DNA from: Flavobacterium sp. W4I14
GTDB taxonomy: Bacteria > Bacteroidota > Bacteroidia > Sphingobacteriales > Sphingobacteriaceae
Length of the DNA: 64,000 bases
Direction of reading: 5' to 3'
Assembly (NCBI GenBank): GCA_030817875.1
Contig: JAUSZU010000001.1
Span: 1,674,001 to 1,738,000 of the forward strand
A program made the position numbers and the translations under genes. The notes beneath the pieces are model-generated. The model did not search any database. It was given only the letters and a program-made list of their open reading frames with translations, and was not told where the DNA came from. This document shows, piece by piece, positions 28,075-35,073 of this stretch; position 1 is the first letter of the stretch; every line of letters starts with the position of its first letter.

Positions 28075-28716
28075 TCATTTAACCTTATCAGTAATTAAAT
28101 GCTTTATCTTCCCTATTCCCATAATCGATGAGCCTTCTCTAAATTCAAACTCCATCCCCTCTGTCAGCCTGCCTGCAAAATAATCTGCCGAAACAATCTT
28201 TATCTCAGCGTCTACCTTTTCTCCTGGATAAACCCATTCACAGTCAATAAAAAGTTGTTGTCCAGAAGTTTGCATTTCATCAAAATCAAATTTAATTTGT
28301 GATCTGTACCCTGTTTTAGCAGGAGTTTTCCGACCTCCCTCCTCAGTAGTTCTATAGGTTAAAGTTGCTATAAAATCTGACTGGGAATTTTTTCTTTCAA
28401 ACTCATAATTGTGGAAGTACTCCCATGCATAACTTTCGATTTCGCCACTTAATATGTTTCCATTTTCATCTTCTATTTTATAATTTTCTTGTTGTTTGCC
28501 AATTTGCGCTTCTCCATCCAACCCTAGCAATACGGTATACAATGCATCTCTTAGCACCCCATTCAGAACCTGGCGAAGCTTGGCCAACTTTTCATGATTA
28601 AGTTGTAGGTCTGCAATGAGCATAGAGACATCAGACTTGTTTTTTTGGCCTAGGTAAAGGTTTATGATTGACCTACGCTCCAGGTAAAAGTTTTCGACGA
28701 ATTGCTGTGGTGTCAT
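28075..28716 (-). CDS. Protein with a stand-alone EF-Tu domain-3-like barrel
   Basis: A 213-residue protein. Residues about 113-207 follow the third domain of elongation factor Tu step by step: EEGGRKTPAKTGYRSQIKF (EF-Tu has EEGGRHTPF..GYRPQFYF), WVYPGEKVDAEI for the MPGDN region, and GMEFEFREGSSIMGIGKI for GMRFAIREGGRTVGAGVV. There is no GTPase or second domain. The N-terminal 100 residues (LRDALYTVLLGLDGEAQIGK, YKIEDENGNI) are a separate module I do not recognise. It follows the XRE-like gene after 5 bases. A role as EF-Tu mimic or sensor in defence is possible but unproven. Confidence 0.7.
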   Translation of the reverse strand: MTPQQFVENFYLERRSIINLYLGQKNKSDVSMLIADLQLNHEKLAKLRQVLNGVLRDALYTVLLGLDGEAQIGKQQENYKIEDENGNILSGEIESYAWEYFHNYEFERKNSQSDFIATLTYRTTEEGGRKTPAKTGYRSQIKFDFDEMQTSGQQLFIDCEWVYPGEKVDAEIKIVSADYFAGRLTEGMEFEFREGSSIMGIGKIKHLITDKVK

Positions 28717-28721
28717 TATTA

Positions 28722-29042
28722 TTATTTAGAATACTTAGCTTTATTCTCTCCGATCTTATTTAAGATCTTCTTCTCTGTTTCTGCCTGTATCACATTGATG
28801 ATAAGGTTCGGATCAATGTTAAATATATAGGCCAAACGTAACACCTCTGAAACTGTAAATTTTTCGGGATTAGATAGCTTTACAGAGTACCGTTCCGAAT
28901 TGATGCCTAGCAATTTAATAATCTTCGTTGGGTACAATTCGGAAATATCGTACATCTTTTTAATCTTGTTGGTTTCAAACATTGCGCCTATTGACGAAAG
29001 GTCTTTTTCGGGACTATTATTGTTGTTCTTCCAATTAGCCAT
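28722..29042 (-). CDS. Small XRE-like helix-turn-helix protein
   Basis: The 106-residue protein has a helical core at about residues 38-85 (KIIKLLGINSERYSVKLSNP, then TVSEVLRLAYIFNIDPNLII) laid out like a Cro/C1 fold, with recognition-helix and 'which conserved loop' spacing as in XRE proteins, though the usual QxxLA is degenerate. It starts at 29042 and is the first gene of a pair with the EF-Tu-domain protein. It might autoregulate the pair. It is transcribed away from the HEPN operon. Confidence 0.55.
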   Translation of the reverse strand: MANWKNNNNSPEKDLSSIGAMFETNKIKKMYDISELYPTKIIKLLGINSERYSVKLSNPEKFTVSEVLRLAYIFNIDPNLIINVIQAETEKKILNKIGENKAKYSK

Positions 29043-29417: not shown

Positions 29418-30329
29418 ATGGAACCAAAATTATCAACAGAAGCCGAACACGCTGTCCATTTTAGGGAGTTTATCCATCGGCTTGCCCAGAAGTTCGAACC
29501 GCTCCAGATCTTCAGCTTTTCGAAGAACAGCTATACTCATAATTCTCAAGGCTGCTTTAATGACAATCAAGGCTATTTTAAATGTGACTATTGCCTATTC
29601 GTAGTTACCGAAACGGCAACCCGGATAGATTATGAAATGCAGGATTTTGCTAACAGCTATTATCAGCATGGAACGATTACGGTGATCTCCCATGGCAAGC
29701 AATCTGTTATGGACGCGGTACAGCAAAACAGCCGCTTTTTTATCGGCGTGCTTACCTATGGAAAACTGCTCTACAGTAAGGATGGACTGTTAGACAGTGA
29801 TCCAATATCTCCTTTTATCCCTTCGAAGGGTGCAATCAAGGCAATAAGACATTACGAACATCGCATACCGCTAGCTGATGGATTTTTGATGTGTGCATCC
29901 GAATGTTTGGAGAAGGAACAGTTCGGGATTTGTGCCTTTATGCTCCATCAGGCCGTAGAACAGACTTGTATCTGTTTGGTGAGGGTTCATATCGCCTACC
30001 GTTCCGAATTTCATAACCTTTACCGCCTGCTCCGTTTGTGTACTTGCTTTTCCGAACGCCCTTTTCAACTTTTCCTGTCCACTCCCGAAGACGAAAGGCT
30101 GTTTGAAATAATGGCAAAAAGTTATTCTGGTTCACGTTATAAAGATGATTTTACGGTTTCCCGGCAGGATGCGGAGGGTCTTTATCTACGGGTCGCCTCT
30201 TTTCTTTTGTTGGCAAAGGAGATGTGCAACGAAAAAATAGAACTGCTTGCCAAATCGGCATCAGATTATGTAGTCTTAAAAAACGCTGATGATGTACAGC
30301 TCGAAGAAATATTACAGACCAATATTTGA
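29418..30329 (+). CDS. HEPN-domain protein with nucleotidyltransferase-like N-terminal part
   Basis: The 303-residue protein has an N-terminal half (FREFIHRLAQKFEPLQIFSF) with an outline like a minimal nucleotidyltransferase but without its GSxxxG-DxD motif. The C-terminal half is HEPN: EQFGICAFMLHQAVEQTCI, FHNLYRLLRLC, then SGSRYKDDFTV and DAEGLYLRVASFLLLAKEM. A clear R-x4-6-H nuclease motif is lacking; RSEFH is the nearest. Fused or paired MNT-HEPN proteins act in toxin-antitoxin and defence systems. It has a structured leader and a coupled downstream gene. Confidence 0.75.
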   Translation: MEPKLSTEAEHAVHFREFIHRLAQKFEPLQIFSFSKNSYTHNSQGCFNDNQGYFKCDYCLFVVTETATRIDYEMQDFANSYYQHGTITVISHGKQSVMDAVQQNSRFFIGVLTYGKLLYSKDGLLDSDPISPFIPSKGAIKAIRHYEHRIPLADGFLMCASECLEKEQFGICAFMLHQAVEQTCICLVRVHIAYRSEFHNLYRLLRLCTCFSERPFQLFLSTPEDERLFEIMAKSYSGSRYKDDFTVSRQDAEGLYLRVASFLLLAKEMCNEKIELLAKSASDYVVLKNADDVQLEEILQTNI

Positions 30330-30333
30330 AACG

Positions 30334-30921
30334 ATGAAAAAGCAGACAAAAAAAACATCTGATAACAGGATCGTTTATCTTAACAACGATGAAATAACAG
30401 GTCCGATAAAAGTGGTACACGATTTTTTCAGTCACTCCTGGTTGCCCAATCATTTGAAAATGCTGAAACGCTGGAGAAACGATGCAGCGCTTGAATCCGA
30501 AGAATCAAAAAAATGTAGCCCAGACAGCCTGGTCTATCATTACGAACTGACCATAAAGCTGATAGAGGCCGCCTGGCTCTTAAAGCGCCACAAGCTTGGC
30601 AGGCTCGATTTCGAGGACAAACAGGAAAATGATATCGCAAAATGGTACATTAAAACGGAAAGGAAGAAGCTACGGGACTATCCTGAAAATCTGAGCATTC
30701 GGGAGATCGTAAAGCCTTCATCTGTGTTAAAGAAAATGTTCAGGATCTATAAACTAAACGGGTACAAAAAAATCCTGCACACATGGCTTCACAATGCGCT
30801 GAGCAGCTCCTTCATTGAAGAAAGCCTGTCCAAATCTGAAGTAATCACAGTTTACGAACAATTGGTCAAACTGTTCGAGGCTACGTGGCTGATTAGTGAG
30901 CGTTTAAAAGCCGGCAATTAA
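30334..30921 (+). CDS. Hypothetical protein coupled to the HEPN gene
   Basis: The 195-residue protein is counted from MKKQTKKTSDNRIVYLN, 4 bases after the HEPN stop; an earlier ATG at 30289 would overlap. It is all-helical and charged, and two segments look alike: ELTIKLIEAAWLLKRH in the first half and EQLVKLFEATWLISERL at the end, suggesting an internal duplication. I recognise no family. Its constant position behind the HEPN gene suggests a partner, perhaps an antitoxin or adaptor. Confidence 0.65.
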   Translation: MKKQTKKTSDNRIVYLNNDEITGPIKVVHDFFSHSWLPNHLKMLKRWRNDAALESEESKKCSPDSLVYHYELTIKLIEAAWLLKRHKLGRLDFEDKQENDIAKWYIKTERKKLRDYPENLSIREIVKPSSVLKKMFRIYKLNGYKKILHTWLHNALSSSFIEESLSKSEVITVYEQLVKLFEATWLISERLKAGN

Positions 30922-31257: not shown

Positions 31258-33681
31258 TTATTTCCAATCGTATTTGGTAGCATCACAGCCGCATCGGATT
31301 TTTTTTGCTACTGTATCATAATTCTTAAGAGAGACTTGAGGCTTTGTACAGGTAGACTGCTGACATTTGAAAACACTTTCGAATTCTATAATATCGTTCC
31401 AAAAGGCTTTTAAATCACCGATCTTCGGATCAAAAGGGTTATCATGGGATAATAAGTTTCCAAATACATTAGAACTGGTCAATCTTTCAATAATTGGAAG
31501 CTTTAATTTTAATTCTGCACTTGCCTTGTTTATTTTAGCCTTTAACTCATTAATCATCTCATCGGGCATCCTTTTTTCATTGACCTCATTATATCTAAAA
31601 TTTAATTTGACTTCAAGATTGAAGCAGATGGTTTTCAAAATATACTCCAAGTATTTCCGAATTGGGTTACCTAATAAAGTTACATTTCCATTTGTTAAAT
31701 CGGCTTCAACCAATTCCTTCAAATCTGATGGATTTTCATCAAGATGGGTTCCCTTTGTTTCAGTCCACTTGATTTTACCAATGATCCAGCCCTTTCTTTT
31801 CGAGATTTGTTTTACATACTGAAACCATTGTTCTTCATGGGTCAGGAGAATAATCTGATAATCTGCAAATTTTTCAAAGAGCAGGTCGGCAAATCTCTTA
31901 CGATGGTTAGTATCAAAACTTGATATAATATCATCTAGTAACAGAAACTTATTCTCTTTATTGAAAGCTATCACTGAAGCAAGGAAAAAAGAAATGCCAA
32001 AGCAATTCAAATGGGATTCACTAAAATATTTCTGAGGAGGAGAAACCCAGTTACCTTTGTACTTGAATTCAATTGTTATTCCATTCAGTTCATTTTCTTC
32101 ACCCATTGTTACAATTCGAATCTCTTCGAATAATTCTCCAGGATTCATGTACTGATAGAACTCATTAATGGTGTCCGAAAAATTATCTATAAAATCCTGC
32201 AACCCATCTTTTTGTTTCTTCACAAAACCATCGAATATAATGCCCAAAGATTTTTTTTGCGCTTCTAGCTTCTCCCTTTCAGCTTCAAATTTCTTAATCT
32301 TTTGAAAGGCATCTTTGGCGGCCGAAATATTAGCGAAAAGCAAGGTCGTATTATCCGTTGCCAAAGCTTTTTTAATTTTTTCTATGCGGCCTAAAACTGC
32401 TTTTAACTCAGAAAAATCTCTATCAACTAGTTTTAAACTATTTGGAATAGCTATTTTATTACCAGAGGTTACTTTTTCAGAGATAGCCTTCTTATAAGCT
32501 TCCATTTTCTTTTTAAGCTCATCAAGTGCATTTTTAGCCGTACTGTTGGAAGTATCCGATATTAATACCTCTGAGCCGAGCGTTGCAAGCCGCTTTATCC
32601 TTTCATCGACAATCGCGGTTGCAGAGATTTTTGCATTGTCAAATACAGCTTTCTTTTTTGAAGATTCCTCAATCTCAAGAAGCCTAACCTTAATTTCACT
32701 TTGGAGGTCGTTTAAGTCCTTCGGCTGTAAACATAAAGGACAGCTACTTTCTGTGTGGAATTTCTTTGATATAAGATTGCAACCAGATTTGAGCATTTCA
32801 GCAAAATAAGTCTGCATTATACTTTGTACATCGGCAGCAATCTTTTCAAACTCCTTAAAATACTTATCGTATTCTTTATCAATTAAGTCAATTTCAGTTT
32901 TTAAGGTTGTAAGTGAGCTTTGGTAAGTTTCTAAAAATCTTAGCTCTGCTACAATCTTTGTGGTAACTGGAGTTTTTAGCTTTAGTAGAACCTTGTCAAC
33001 ATCTTCCATTAAGCCAACAGTAATTCCAGTTCCATAATCAGCAATAATCTCGTTTATTTTTTCATAGAAATTATTTTCCTGACTTACAGCCGCACCTATT
33101 TTTTCAATAAGAGTCTGTTTTTGAGTGTTGATTTGATTCTCAAAATTTTGTGACTTTATTTCGGATTTAAGGGAGTTGAATGACTTTCTAAGCACGTCCT
33201 TTATCTTGGTCACCTCGGAAAAACCAATAATATCCGATAAATTCTTTAGTTTATCTCCTTTTGTCCTATCAATGAAATCCCTCAGAAATTGGTAACGCAG
33301 AATTAGGTTCTCCTTCTTTGAACTTTCTAGGTAGTTTGAGAAATCTGTAGTTACATTGGAGTATTCACTCACCAATTTACCTTTCTTGGTTAACAGTTTT
33401 TTTTGTGAATTAATAACTGCCTTGTTATAATTAACGCTGATATTGGATTCCTCCTCCGAAGCAAAATATGCGTTTCTTAATGCTTCTTTAAGATCAATCT
33501 CTTCTCCGCTTAAATGTGAAACTGCATCAGTATAGTACCATTCCACAGAATCTGAAATGCTGCTTTTACCTGTTCCATTGTCACCATAAAGAAGTACAGA
33601 TTTTTCGCCCAATGCAAGTGAAAGTGTGTCTCTAATGCCCCTAAGCCCTGTAATTTCCAGTTGTTTGATTTTAATCGCCAT
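31258..33681 (-). CDS. SMC/Rad50-like ATPase with zinc hook and Cys-rich tail
   Basis: An 807-residue protein. Walker A is GDNGTGKSS (33-41); a coiled-coil arm runs from about 100 to 300; CPLC (314-317) at its apex is a Rad50-type zinc hook; the second arm runs to about 500. The signature region is KYFSESHLN (about 551-559), Walker B FLLLDD (579-584) and the H-loop THEEQW (614 on). A C-terminal domain of about 150 residues carries R675, E679 and H746, then four Cys (773, 778, 797, 799), probably a zinc ribbon. It is the last gene of a three-gene operon. The build resembles RloC and Lamassu LmuB, but the tail matches neither from memory. Confidence 0.85.
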   Translation of the reverse strand: MAIKIKQLEITGLRGIRDTLSLALGEKSVLLYGDNGTGKSSISDSVEWYYTDAVSHLSGEEIDLKEALRNAYFASEEESNISVNYNKAVINSQKKLLTKKGKLVSEYSNVTTDFSNYLESSKKENLILRYQFLRDFIDRTKGDKLKNLSDIIGFSEVTKIKDVLRKSFNSLKSEIKSQNFENQINTQKQTLIEKIGAAVSQENNFYEKINEIIADYGTGITVGLMEDVDKVLLKLKTPVTTKIVAELRFLETYQSSLTTLKTEIDLIDKEYDKYFKEFEKIAADVQSIMQTYFAEMLKSGCNLISKKFHTESSCPLCLQPKDLNDLQSEIKVRLLEIEESSKKKAVFDNAKISATAIVDERIKRLATLGSEVLISDTSNSTAKNALDELKKKMEAYKKAISEKVTSGNKIAIPNSLKLVDRDFSELKAVLGRIEKIKKALATDNTTLLFANISAAKDAFQKIKKFEAEREKLEAQKKSLGIIFDGFVKKQKDGLQDFIDNFSDTINEFYQYMNPGELFEEIRIVTMGEENELNGITIEFKYKGNWVSPPQKYFSESHLNCFGISFFLASVIAFNKENKFLLLDDIISSFDTNHRKRFADLLFEKFADYQIILLTHEEQWFQYVKQISKRKGWIIGKIKWTETKGTHLDENPSDLKELVEADLTNGNVTLLGNPIRKYLEYILKTICFNLEVKLNFRYNEVNEKRMPDEMINELKAKINKASAELKLKLPIIERLTSSNVFGNLLSHDNPFDPKIGDLKAFWNDIIEFESVFKCQQSTCTKPQVSLKNYDTVAKKIRCGCDATKYDWK

Positions 33682-33856
33682 CTTTTTCTCTTAGATTTTG
33701 AAGTTCATTTTTGACATTTGTATCAGTTAGCTTTCCCTGTTCATATAGAGAAGCCAAAGATTTTGCAATTTTTTGGTTAACTTCTGGCATCTTTTCTATG
33801 TCTCTGAAGAAATCATCTAAAATCTCTTTTCCAGACTTAACTTCTCTTTTATTCAT
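33671..33856 (-). CDS. Small protein between nuclease and SMC-like genes
   Basis: The 61-residue acidic and lysine-rich helical protein (MNKREVKSGKEILDDFF, KSLASLYEQGKLTD) is the middle gene of the operon. It starts 2 bases after the GIY-YIG stop and overlaps the ATPase start by 11 bases. The tight fit supports that it is real. I recognise no family; a bridging or inhibitory subunit is a reasonable guess given its place. Confidence 0.75.
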   Translation of the reverse strand: MNKREVKSGKEILDDFFRDIEKMPEVNQKIAKSLASLYEQGKLTDTNVKNELQNLREKDGD

Positions 33857-33858
33857 AT

Positions 33859-34323
33859 CTATTTAAAATAATTCCAATCAATTTTAAAATGTGTTGCGAT
33901 ATTATTGCTCATTACATCAAGCCCTGTCTTATTGTTGCAAATTGGGTATACGCCAAAATGCTGTACAAAATTTAATATGAAGTAGCTTTCTAGGTCTTCA
34001 ATTCTGTAAGCCCATATATTCTTAAGCATGTCAAAATTGATGTAAGTGAACCATAGTGGTTCAACTTGTCTGTAATTGGTTAGTCCGACGTTTTTAGACT
34101 TACCTCCAAAATGGCCATTTAATCGACTTCCAATACTATTTGTTCTTTTTTCACTCATCCCGATATATAAAAGCCTTGATTTGTCGAAAGGATATTGGAT
34201 TTGGATAGACGATGAAAAAATAAAATACAATCCAGCTATTCCATTCAATGGGAGAATATTACTCGCTTCAAAATTTTTGGGAGAGTCAAAGTAGATATTT
34301 ACAGTTTGATTTGGTCGGCTCAT
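33859..34323 (-). CDS. GIY-YIG nuclease
   Basis: A 154-residue protein made almost wholly of one GIY-YIG domain: GLYFIF (31-36) is the GIY strand, LLYIG (51-55) the YIG strand, IGSRLNGHF carries Arg67, LESYFI carries the metal-binding Glu112, and YPICNNKTG (126-134) the conserved Asn. All catalytic positions are thus filled. It is the first gene of the operon with the 61-residue protein and the SMC-like ATPase, so it is likely the DNA-cutting effector. No DNA-binding extension is present, so targeting may come from the ATPase. Confidence 0.83.
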   Translation of the reverse strand: MSRPNQTVNIYFDSPKNFEASNILPLNGIAGLYFIFSSSIQIQYPFDKSRLLYIGMSEKRTNSIGSRLNGHFGGKSKNVGLTNYRQVEPLWFTYINFDMLKNIWAYRIEDLESYFILNFVQHFGVYPICNNKTGLDVMSNNIATHFKIDWNYFK

Positions 34324-34492
34324 TAAATTGGATGGTATTTTTCATTAAAGTTAAGAAATTGATCTCTATATAATTTCTTCATTATTTCTAAGATCATTTA
34401 ACCACTCACTATCGAGATTTATTAAGATTAATGGCAATCCATAGCTACTAAATCGCTGGTAAAAAATGAAAATTCTTGAAAAAAACTAATCT

Positions 34493-34687
34493 TTAGGTTA
34501 TATCCGACAGTTTTATCATAATTAAATCTATGCACTGTTGTCCAAGACTCACAGGAACATTAAATGCTAGTTCTAGAAGTTGATTCGAATAATTACCGCT
34601 TCTGATGGCTAATGTCCATCTAGTCAGATCATCTTTATAGTAATAAATTCTTGCTTCGTTATTAGACAGAAATTGATGGCCACTCAT
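34493..34687 (-). CDS. Hypothetical small protein, maybe the detached end of the upstream gene
   Basis: 64 residues, starting MSGHQFLSNNEARIYYY. Its ATG overlaps the stop of the upstream frame (TAATG), which fits either coupled translation or a frameshifted end of one former gene. RWTLAIRSGNYSNQLLELAF gives no family match. Confidence 0.4.
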   Translation of the reverse strand: MSGHQFLSNNEARIYYYKDDLTRWTLAIRSGNYSNQLLELAFNVPVSLGQQCIDLIMIKLSDIT

Positions 34688-35073
34688 TATTTCCCTAACA
34701 CTTTCCAGTCTTGAAAATAGAAAAAGTAGGTCGCCTGTCTCAGCAATCGAATCATAAACCTGTTGATTGTTCTATCAAACTCCCTGAATATTGCGTCCAT
34801 TGTTAAATCTCCTCTAAAATAATCGATCTCAAACCCAGTCCAATTGTTTATCATAGCTTTGCATACAAACAGCAATCTTGAAGGATAAGAAAACGGCATT
34901 AGTATGGGAGGCTCCATTAGTCCATCTGCATCATGAGCTGCGCCTTTTCCATTTATAAAAAATAGTCCAGTTCCATTTTGCTGAAATATATAATTTGCAT
35001 CTGGTCTCACAGAAGTAAAACCACAATTTAACATCAAGTTCCTTATTATAAATTCCAAAAGAGCTCTTTTCAA
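34687..35073 (-). CDS. Restriction-nuclease-like N-terminal fragment
   Basis: The 128-residue protein opens with IIRNLMLNCGFTSVRPDAN and FINGKGAAHDADGLMEPP, then PSRLLFVCKAMINNWTG. The order, with an Asp-rich loop before a strand ending in CKA, resembles the PD-(D/E)XK core of Mrr-like nucleases, with Cys in place of the usual Glu before Lys. Relatives are usually more than twice as long, so this is probably truncated, the rest perhaps in the frame at 34493-34687. It lies upstream of the GIY-YIG operon on the same strand, separated by 169 bases. Confidence 0.5.
   Translation of the reverse strand: MKRALLEFIIRNLMLNCGFTSVRPDANYIFQQNGTGLFFINGKGAAHDADGLMEPPILMPFSYPSRLLFVCKAMINNWTGFEIDYFRGDLTMDAIFREFDRTINRFMIRLLRQATYFFYFQDWKVLGK

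Follow-up and report, generated by a model that had tools for sequence, protein, structure and literature searches.

A conserved three-gene operon of a GIY-YIG protein, a small partner and a zinc-hook ATPase with a predicted HEPN tail is a candidate defence module

What might a bacterium do with a GIY-YIG protein, a 61-amino-acid protein and a zinc-hook ATPase that are encoded in one tight operon? We asked this of a 64,000-nucleotide stretch of DNA from Flavobacterium sp. W4I14 (contig JAUSZU010000001.1, positions 1,674,001 to 1,738,000; hereafter the window), which comes from a 6.45-Mb single-contig genome. A first-pass annotation, made from the window's letters alone, had proposed a defence operon here. 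Analysis of open reading frames (ORFs) confirmed three minus-strand genes at 31258..34323, with the 2-base gap and the 11-base overlap that had been described. We give an even chance to the trio being a defence module in which, by analogy with RloC, a hook ATPase would sense aberrant DNA and would act through its own HEPN suicide RNase and a partner GIY-YIG DNase. The features are listed below; for the ATPase, motif counts are for the 120 homologues listed of 770.

33859..34323, minus strand: GIY-YIG protein, 154 amino acids (ORF; sub-threshold Pfam matches; conserved residues; structural comparison rows)
33671..33856, minus strand: 61-amino-acid partner protein, starting 2 bases past the GIY-YIG gene and overlapping the ATPase gene by 11 bases
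31258..33681, minus strand: ABC/zinc-hook ATPase, 807 amino acids, with a predicted HEPN tail (Pfam SMC_N, E 1.2e-14; PADLOC LmuB, E 2.1e-26)
33559..33585, minus strand: Walker A, residues 33-41, GDNGTGKSS (sequence and alignment)
32731..32742, minus strand: zinc-hook motif CPLC, residues 314-317 (CPLC in 119/120, CPMC in 1/120)
31369..31740, minus strand: predicted HEPN domain, about residues 648-771 (structure model and structural comparison rows)
31645..31659, minus strand: Arg675-x3-Glu679 of a PrrC/RloC-type triad (120/120; motif from PMC2610378)
31444..31449, minus strand: Ser745-His746 of the triad (120/120)
31285..31365, minus strand: Cys tail C773, C778, C797 and C799 (pattern in 119/120)

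In the ATPase, Walker A, a signature-like SESH, Walker B, an H-loop and CPLC all aligned. RloC (658-897 amino acids), a wobble-nucleotide-excising tRNase, has an ABC ATPase interrupted by a coiled coil that bears a CXXC hook, and ends in a HEPN RNase; its triad is Arg-x3-Glu...His, often with Ser before the His (PMC2610378, PMC3710099). Beyond its LmuB-like body, the trio ATPase continues for about 180 residues. This C-terminal region had been called a novel domain with four cysteines. The cysteines are present and probably form a zinc ribbon, but the domain itself is better described as a predicted HEPN domain followed by the Cys tail, a reading that is new here. All 120 homologues keep the triad Arg675-x3-Glu679-x66-His746 (for Arg-x3-Glu, 114 by a strict pattern and 6 by the printed sequence). 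None of the 120 has the HEPN Rx4-6H motif; they have G-N-x-L-S-H, with the Arg at Rx3E instead. Because the tail is a predicted HEPN domain with the PrrC/RloC triad, we view RloC and PrrC as nearer mechanistic relatives of the trio ATPase than Lamassu.

In the GIY-YIG protein, we take the active-site motif residues to be G31-L-Y33, Y53-I-G55, R67, H71, E112 and N130. Except for L32 (Leu or Ile), these are invariant in 11 aligned sequences, one of them only 40% identical, and all five motif patterns (GIY, YIG, Arg, Glu and Asn) are found in 117 of 120 listed homologues. The protein scores below the Pfam cut-offs (17.3 of 22.4 and 16.9 of 22.6 bits), and the best Pfam score among the 11 relatives has E 2.4e-4. 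Its profile matched nothing among PDB sequences at E <= 1, and Foldseek with its model gave no GIY-YIG entry among 50 of 83 rows; a second structural comparison did match GIY-YIG entries, with a poor model (predicted local distance difference test, pLDDT, 54.8). The 61-amino-acid protein had no convincing family match in Pfam and PADLOC comparisons.

The gene order is conserved across genomes. Twelve loci in the genome collection encode a close relative of the ATPase, and at every one the GIY-YIG gene, the small gene and the ATPase gene follow in order; the closest one found is from Pedobacter xixiisoli, with an ATPase 87% identical. Three of these loci (L002, L005 and L009), from differently named Pedobacter records, share at least 99.98% identity across 14.4 kb, which indicates either recent spread or very close strains and leaves 10 of the 12 distinct. 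(L014, an identical stretch of 5.4 kb, is apparently from the contig that carries L002.) Damage is seen at two of the ten: in L010, from an Endomicrobium metagenome-assembled genome (MAG), the ATPase is split over two frames, and in L012 its frame stops after about 649 codons, ahead of the tail. In a sample of 299 genomes of the genus around a Flavobacterium locus, the GIY-YIG protein was found in 7 and the ATPase in 8; all seven GIY-bearing genomes have the trio, one being L007 again. Together with the window and an Aliiroseovarius plasmid, there are 18 distinct trio loci. Seventeen share the gene order (16 from Bacteroidota and the Endomicrobium MAG), and in the eighteenth, on the alphaproteobacterial plasmid, the GIY-YIG gene is inverted. 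Among 17 loci measured, the distance from the GIY-YIG gene to the small gene is -4 to +8 bases, and the small gene overlaps the ATPase gene by 11 to 20 bases, except for 53 at L012, where the start codon chosen lies upstream.

That plasmid was found among 72,556 plasmid records, of which 57 matched the ATPase and one the GIY-YIG protein. The sole GIY-matching record, from Aliiroseovarius crassostreae (L018), is also the best ATPase match (GIY-YIG 40% and ATPase 30% identical). It has a gene for a 71-amino-acid protein between the two, which by eye resembles the window's small protein, and the GIY-YIG gene is on the opposite strand. In the tree, the plasmid locus joins the trio clade with support of 89/86, under the tool's 95/80 star. 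The GIY-YIG gene was probably gained once, in one clade, with a single gain at the clade's base as the simplest reading, and was probably lost at least once. A single-sequence search with the GIY-YIG protein in 395 genomes of the phylum returned only the window's own match, so the family is rare. None of 91 pattern matches in viral contigs was related to the ATPase, and phage records, searched by the GIY-YIG protein only, gave no match to it.

Several results weigh against reading the trio as an RloC-like defence module. The window's ATPase has no PF13166 (AAA_13) match at E <= 1, and its body scores best with PADLOC LmuB models, above any RloC profile; thus it is built like RloC but not filed as RloC. 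The Glu-His spacer is 66-67 residues in 119/120 homologues, outside the 36-52 of RloC (PMC2610378). The tail's match to an RloC profile is weak (probability 26.8; pairwise E 7e-4, with a reversed control at E 0.1), and each alignment put only one of the two motifs in register. The tail model is of modest confidence (pLDDT 66.6), and Foldseek gave no row for it at E <= 0.001. Finally, one genome of the genus sample (G499) retains the small gene and the ATPase (45% and 53%, respectively) but gave no GIY-YIG match, so this locus either can do without GIY-YIG or is falling apart. In the tree, G499 forms a pair with a trio locus (99/96), which makes a loss of GIY-YIG the best reading. As for the other comparisons with RloC, for which our set was the proteins matching PF13166, spacers of 57-63 are common in that set, some ATPase homologues bear PF13166 as a precomputed domain (such as P0024 and P0081), and a long branch separates the trio ATPases from PF13166 proteins in the tree. 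Against PDB, the tail profile returned only three rows (E 0.23-0.96), which we took as chance.

The first-pass annotation had also seen the logic of Lamassu in the trio, and part of this stands. Lamassu has the gene order effector, small component, ATPase, and many LmuB proteins have a zinc hook (PMC10586767); PADLOC LmuB models match the ATPase with a best E of 2.1e-26 (90 bits) and, nearly full length, with E 8.5e-22 (there is no curated cut-off). In a Lamassu-like (ABC-3C) system, the GIY-YIG protein would be an LmuA-type effector, the 61-amino-acid protein the middle component and the ATPase an LmuB-type sensor, and the tail would be structural or serve only for docking. We keep this as the main rival but consider it unlikely, as several features do not fit. 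The ATPase has 807 residues and a conserved, triad-bearing HEPN-like tail, whereas LmuB has about 650 residues. Walker B is Asp-Asp in 24 of 24 aligned members of the wider ATPase family, whereas in LmuB it generally, though not absolutely, changes Glu to Gln (PMC10586767). GIY-YIG is not among the effector domains given in that review, and at 154 residues the protein is too short for a sizeable C-terminal docking domain. For the GIY-YIG and small proteins, PADLOC returned neither LmuA nor LmuC (E <= 1), and wide-family members reach just 20 to 104 bits, each against its best LmuB model.

This wider family consists of a small protein and a hook ATPase with a HEPN-like tail, and is found in bacteria and haloarchaea (sources include Bradyrhizobium, Rhizobium, Sphingomonas, Phaeobacter, Hymenobacter and haloarchaea). 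We collected eight ATPases that are more remote, with 17-29% identity to that of the window, and twelve further ones. Directly upstream of all 20 (a raw count) is an ORF of 53-93 codons whose end runs 4 to 26 bases into the ATPase gene (56 at L074, where the start was picked mechanically). Within the stretches examined (about 1.5 kb or less per side at L015 and L073-L075), a GIY-YIG match was found only at L018. The core unit is therefore the small protein plus the ATPase. A search of 385 genomes for the wide family gave 15 matches, 4 with a nearly full-length ATPase and 11 partial, and the analysis was restricted to the 4. At a Halorhabdus locus (L021 4811-7475), a pair of this kind lies between BREX-5 pglX and pglZ. 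At a haloarchaeal locus (L088 2501-4465), a 654-amino-acid ATPase stops before the HEPN tail and the small upstream gene is retained.

Across the 23 aligned members whose tail is complete, the positions aligned to Glu679 and His746 are invariant, while the Arg takes one of two places: at Rx3E in 17, and immediately ahead of the Asn in the His motif (RNx3H or RNx4H, four to five residues ahead of the His, so that the Rx4-6H motif does occur) in 6. None of the 23 has both placements and none has neither; L094, one of the 17, has a further Arg three residues ahead of the His. (L088, with no tail, was left out of this count; L091, with a 574-amino-acid ATPase annotation, was left out of the wide set.) These are not 23 independent cases. 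On the tree, the six RNx3-4H members are L015 alone plus one five-row clade, which makes two changes; forks between these groups are weak (85/86 and 92/90), and a group test left most Rx3E rows unlabelled. The swap may have been one or two events. Our first idea was that the GIY-YIG clade had a HEPN tail inactivated by the missing Rx4-6H Arg, and that GIY-YIG had taken its place. We dropped it because most relatives without GIY-YIG lack that Arg as well, and those carry Arg-x3-Glu.

If the core is a small protein and an ATPase, the HEPN-like tail could be the sole effector, with the GIY-YIG protein as an accessory such as a processing or regulatory nuclease. The lone GIY-YIG match among the 20 wide-family loci and the lack of one in G499 both favour this. 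However, the GIY-YIG protein is the most conserved of the three within the trio clade (identity is 72-95% within set A2, versus 57-87% for close ATPases), and it remains linked even when inverted, as on the Aliiroseovarius plasmid. We judge a sole-effector tail to be improbable.

The surroundings of the trio loci are rich in restriction-modification and other defence genes, which supports the defence role that the first-pass annotation had proposed. At 16 trio loci, 105 neighbouring proteins match 352 PADLOC models at E <= 1e-10, as compared to 7 models for 100 control proteins. (These tallies are of models, not proteins, and many are redundant methylase models; the neighbour count leaves out a short contig (L004) and two near-copies (L005, L009); the controls are 100 of 148 proteins, hand-picked in order along 16 stretches of 12 trio-bearing genomes.) Restriction-modification or related neighbours are present at at least 8 of the 16 loci. 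Ahead of the trio lie a type III res-mod that ends 4 bases from the GIY-YIG gene (L034), HsdR (L006), an Eco57I-type enzyme (L035) and a DNA methylase (L033); behind it lie mod-res (L010), a type ISP enzyme (L002) and a GmrSD-type gene (L007); and L011 has hsdM-hsdS ahead and hsdR behind. A housekeeping DNA-repair complex, analogous to Rad50-Mre11 but with a GIY-YIG nuclease and no defence role, would share the layout of hook ATPase plus nuclease and would suit the ATPase profile's matches to Rad50 and SMC heads in PDB, but it is very improbable given these neighbours, the patchy presence across the genus sample, the near-identical Pedobacter copies and the plasmid copy.

How would an RloC-like defence module work? 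DNA-end sensing and tRNA cleavage have a precedent in RloC (PMC2610378, PMC3874168). By analogy, DNA ends, for example from restricted phage DNA, would engage the ATPase heads and the hook; a nucleotide cycle would then release the HEPN domain, and the freed domain would cut tRNA, so that translation would stop. In steps that go beyond this precedent, the small protein might bridge or restrain the ATPase, and the GIY-YIG enzyme might be recruited by it to cut DNA. The full scheme, in which one hook ATPase commands both the tail tRNase and the GIY-YIG DNase through a bridging small protein, so that one DNA-break signal halts translation and destroys DNA, and in which the parent two-gene family moved its catalytic Arg with Glu and His fixed, is possible, though we would bet somewhat against it. 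If it is true, the RloC/PrrC-type suicide nucleases belong, as a single branch, to a larger set of hook ATPases that carry partners, and in the trio branch one sensor triggers the destruction of both RNA and DNA. The choice that such ATPases make between effectors would become testable, and an Arg at either of two sites would be a natural swap for dissecting the HEPN active site. The two-gene core, which has only partial scores with PADLOC 2023 models, is also a defence candidate.

Some neighbouring genes deserve mention. At L008 (8692-10989), a PF13166 (RloC-like) gene is directly 3' of the trio, so both types of hook ATPase can share an island. On the plasmid (L018 8473-12010), TniQ, TniB and Mu-type transposase genes adjoin the trio and are a possible vehicle. 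A small protein, presumably KTSC-like, is encoded ahead of the GIY-YIG gene at L004 (414-632), L010 (836-973; a short copy) and L011 (5140-5355). In the window, upstream of the GIY-YIG gene (34381-35073, minus strand), lies what had been called a broken nuclease. It is a broken copy of a gene for 359 amino acids, with pieces that match in different frames and about 130 middle residues unmatched; the gene is whole at L001 (4226-5305) and has a relative at L002 (3398-4540). The intact protein had no Pfam match, and its nuclease fold is only a guess from an ExK-like motif. Of a supposed HEPN pair (29418-30921, plus strand), the 303-amino-acid ORF does match HEPN (PF05168, E 8.1e-8), while the overlapping 210-amino-acid ORF has no family match; the two are possibly a second RNase module beside the trio. 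Two ORFs of 106 and 213 amino acids, 5 bases apart (28075-29042, minus strand), had been taken for a toxin-antitoxin pair, which no family match bears out; the latter matches a profile for EF-Tu domain 3 below threshold (E 1.5e-5).

Among named systems (Menshen and Lamassu are the two that the first-pass annotation brought up), we know of no ATPase or small partner of the trio kind in PD-T4-3 or PD-lambda-1. No PADLOC model matched all three proteins, in agreement with the first-pass annotation, and with PADLOC 2023 the small and GIY-YIG proteins had no row below E 0.01. Some ATPase homologues do come with the other two genes; thus neither of the outcomes that the first-pass annotation had named as refuting was seen. 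The suggested likeness to Menshen was rejected: Menshen (NsnABC) is described as a DUF262 gene plus a predicted OLD nuclease (PMC10952713), a different composition, and the 61-amino-acid protein gave only a chance-level NsnC row (E 0.011). Literature searches on GIY-YIG together with Menshen or Lamassu, with RloC, with a zinc hook or with ABC ATPase/HEPN gave, judged by titles, abstract openings and excerpts, no description of the trio; an earlier mention in Krishnan et al. 2020 (PMC7544218), the main survey of ABC ATPases, is possible. CxC ABC-ATPase systems (PbeABCD) likewise combine a zinc-hook ATPase, a small protein and a nuclease, but they have an HKD nuclease-helicase and a DndE-like protein, neither of which is in the trio (PMC10853773). 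With Lamassu, ABC-3C and DdmABC, the trio shares an effector, a small middle component and a hook ATPase in one operon. PrrC, an ABC-HEPN anticodon nuclease within a type I restriction-modification locus (PMC3710099), shares the ATPase and the predicted HEPN anticodon-nuclease triad. It differs from the trio in being silenced by its restriction enzyme. PrrC also lacks the zinc-hook insert and is about half the size (PMC2610378). RloC is alike in its ABC head, its hook and a HEPN domain with Arg-x3-Glu...Ser-His, which in the trio is predicted; to these the trio adds the GIY-YIG protein, the small partner and the Cys tail. The RloC-type layout is known, and a hook ATPase with a second nuclease (GIY-YIG) and a small partner is likely to be new.
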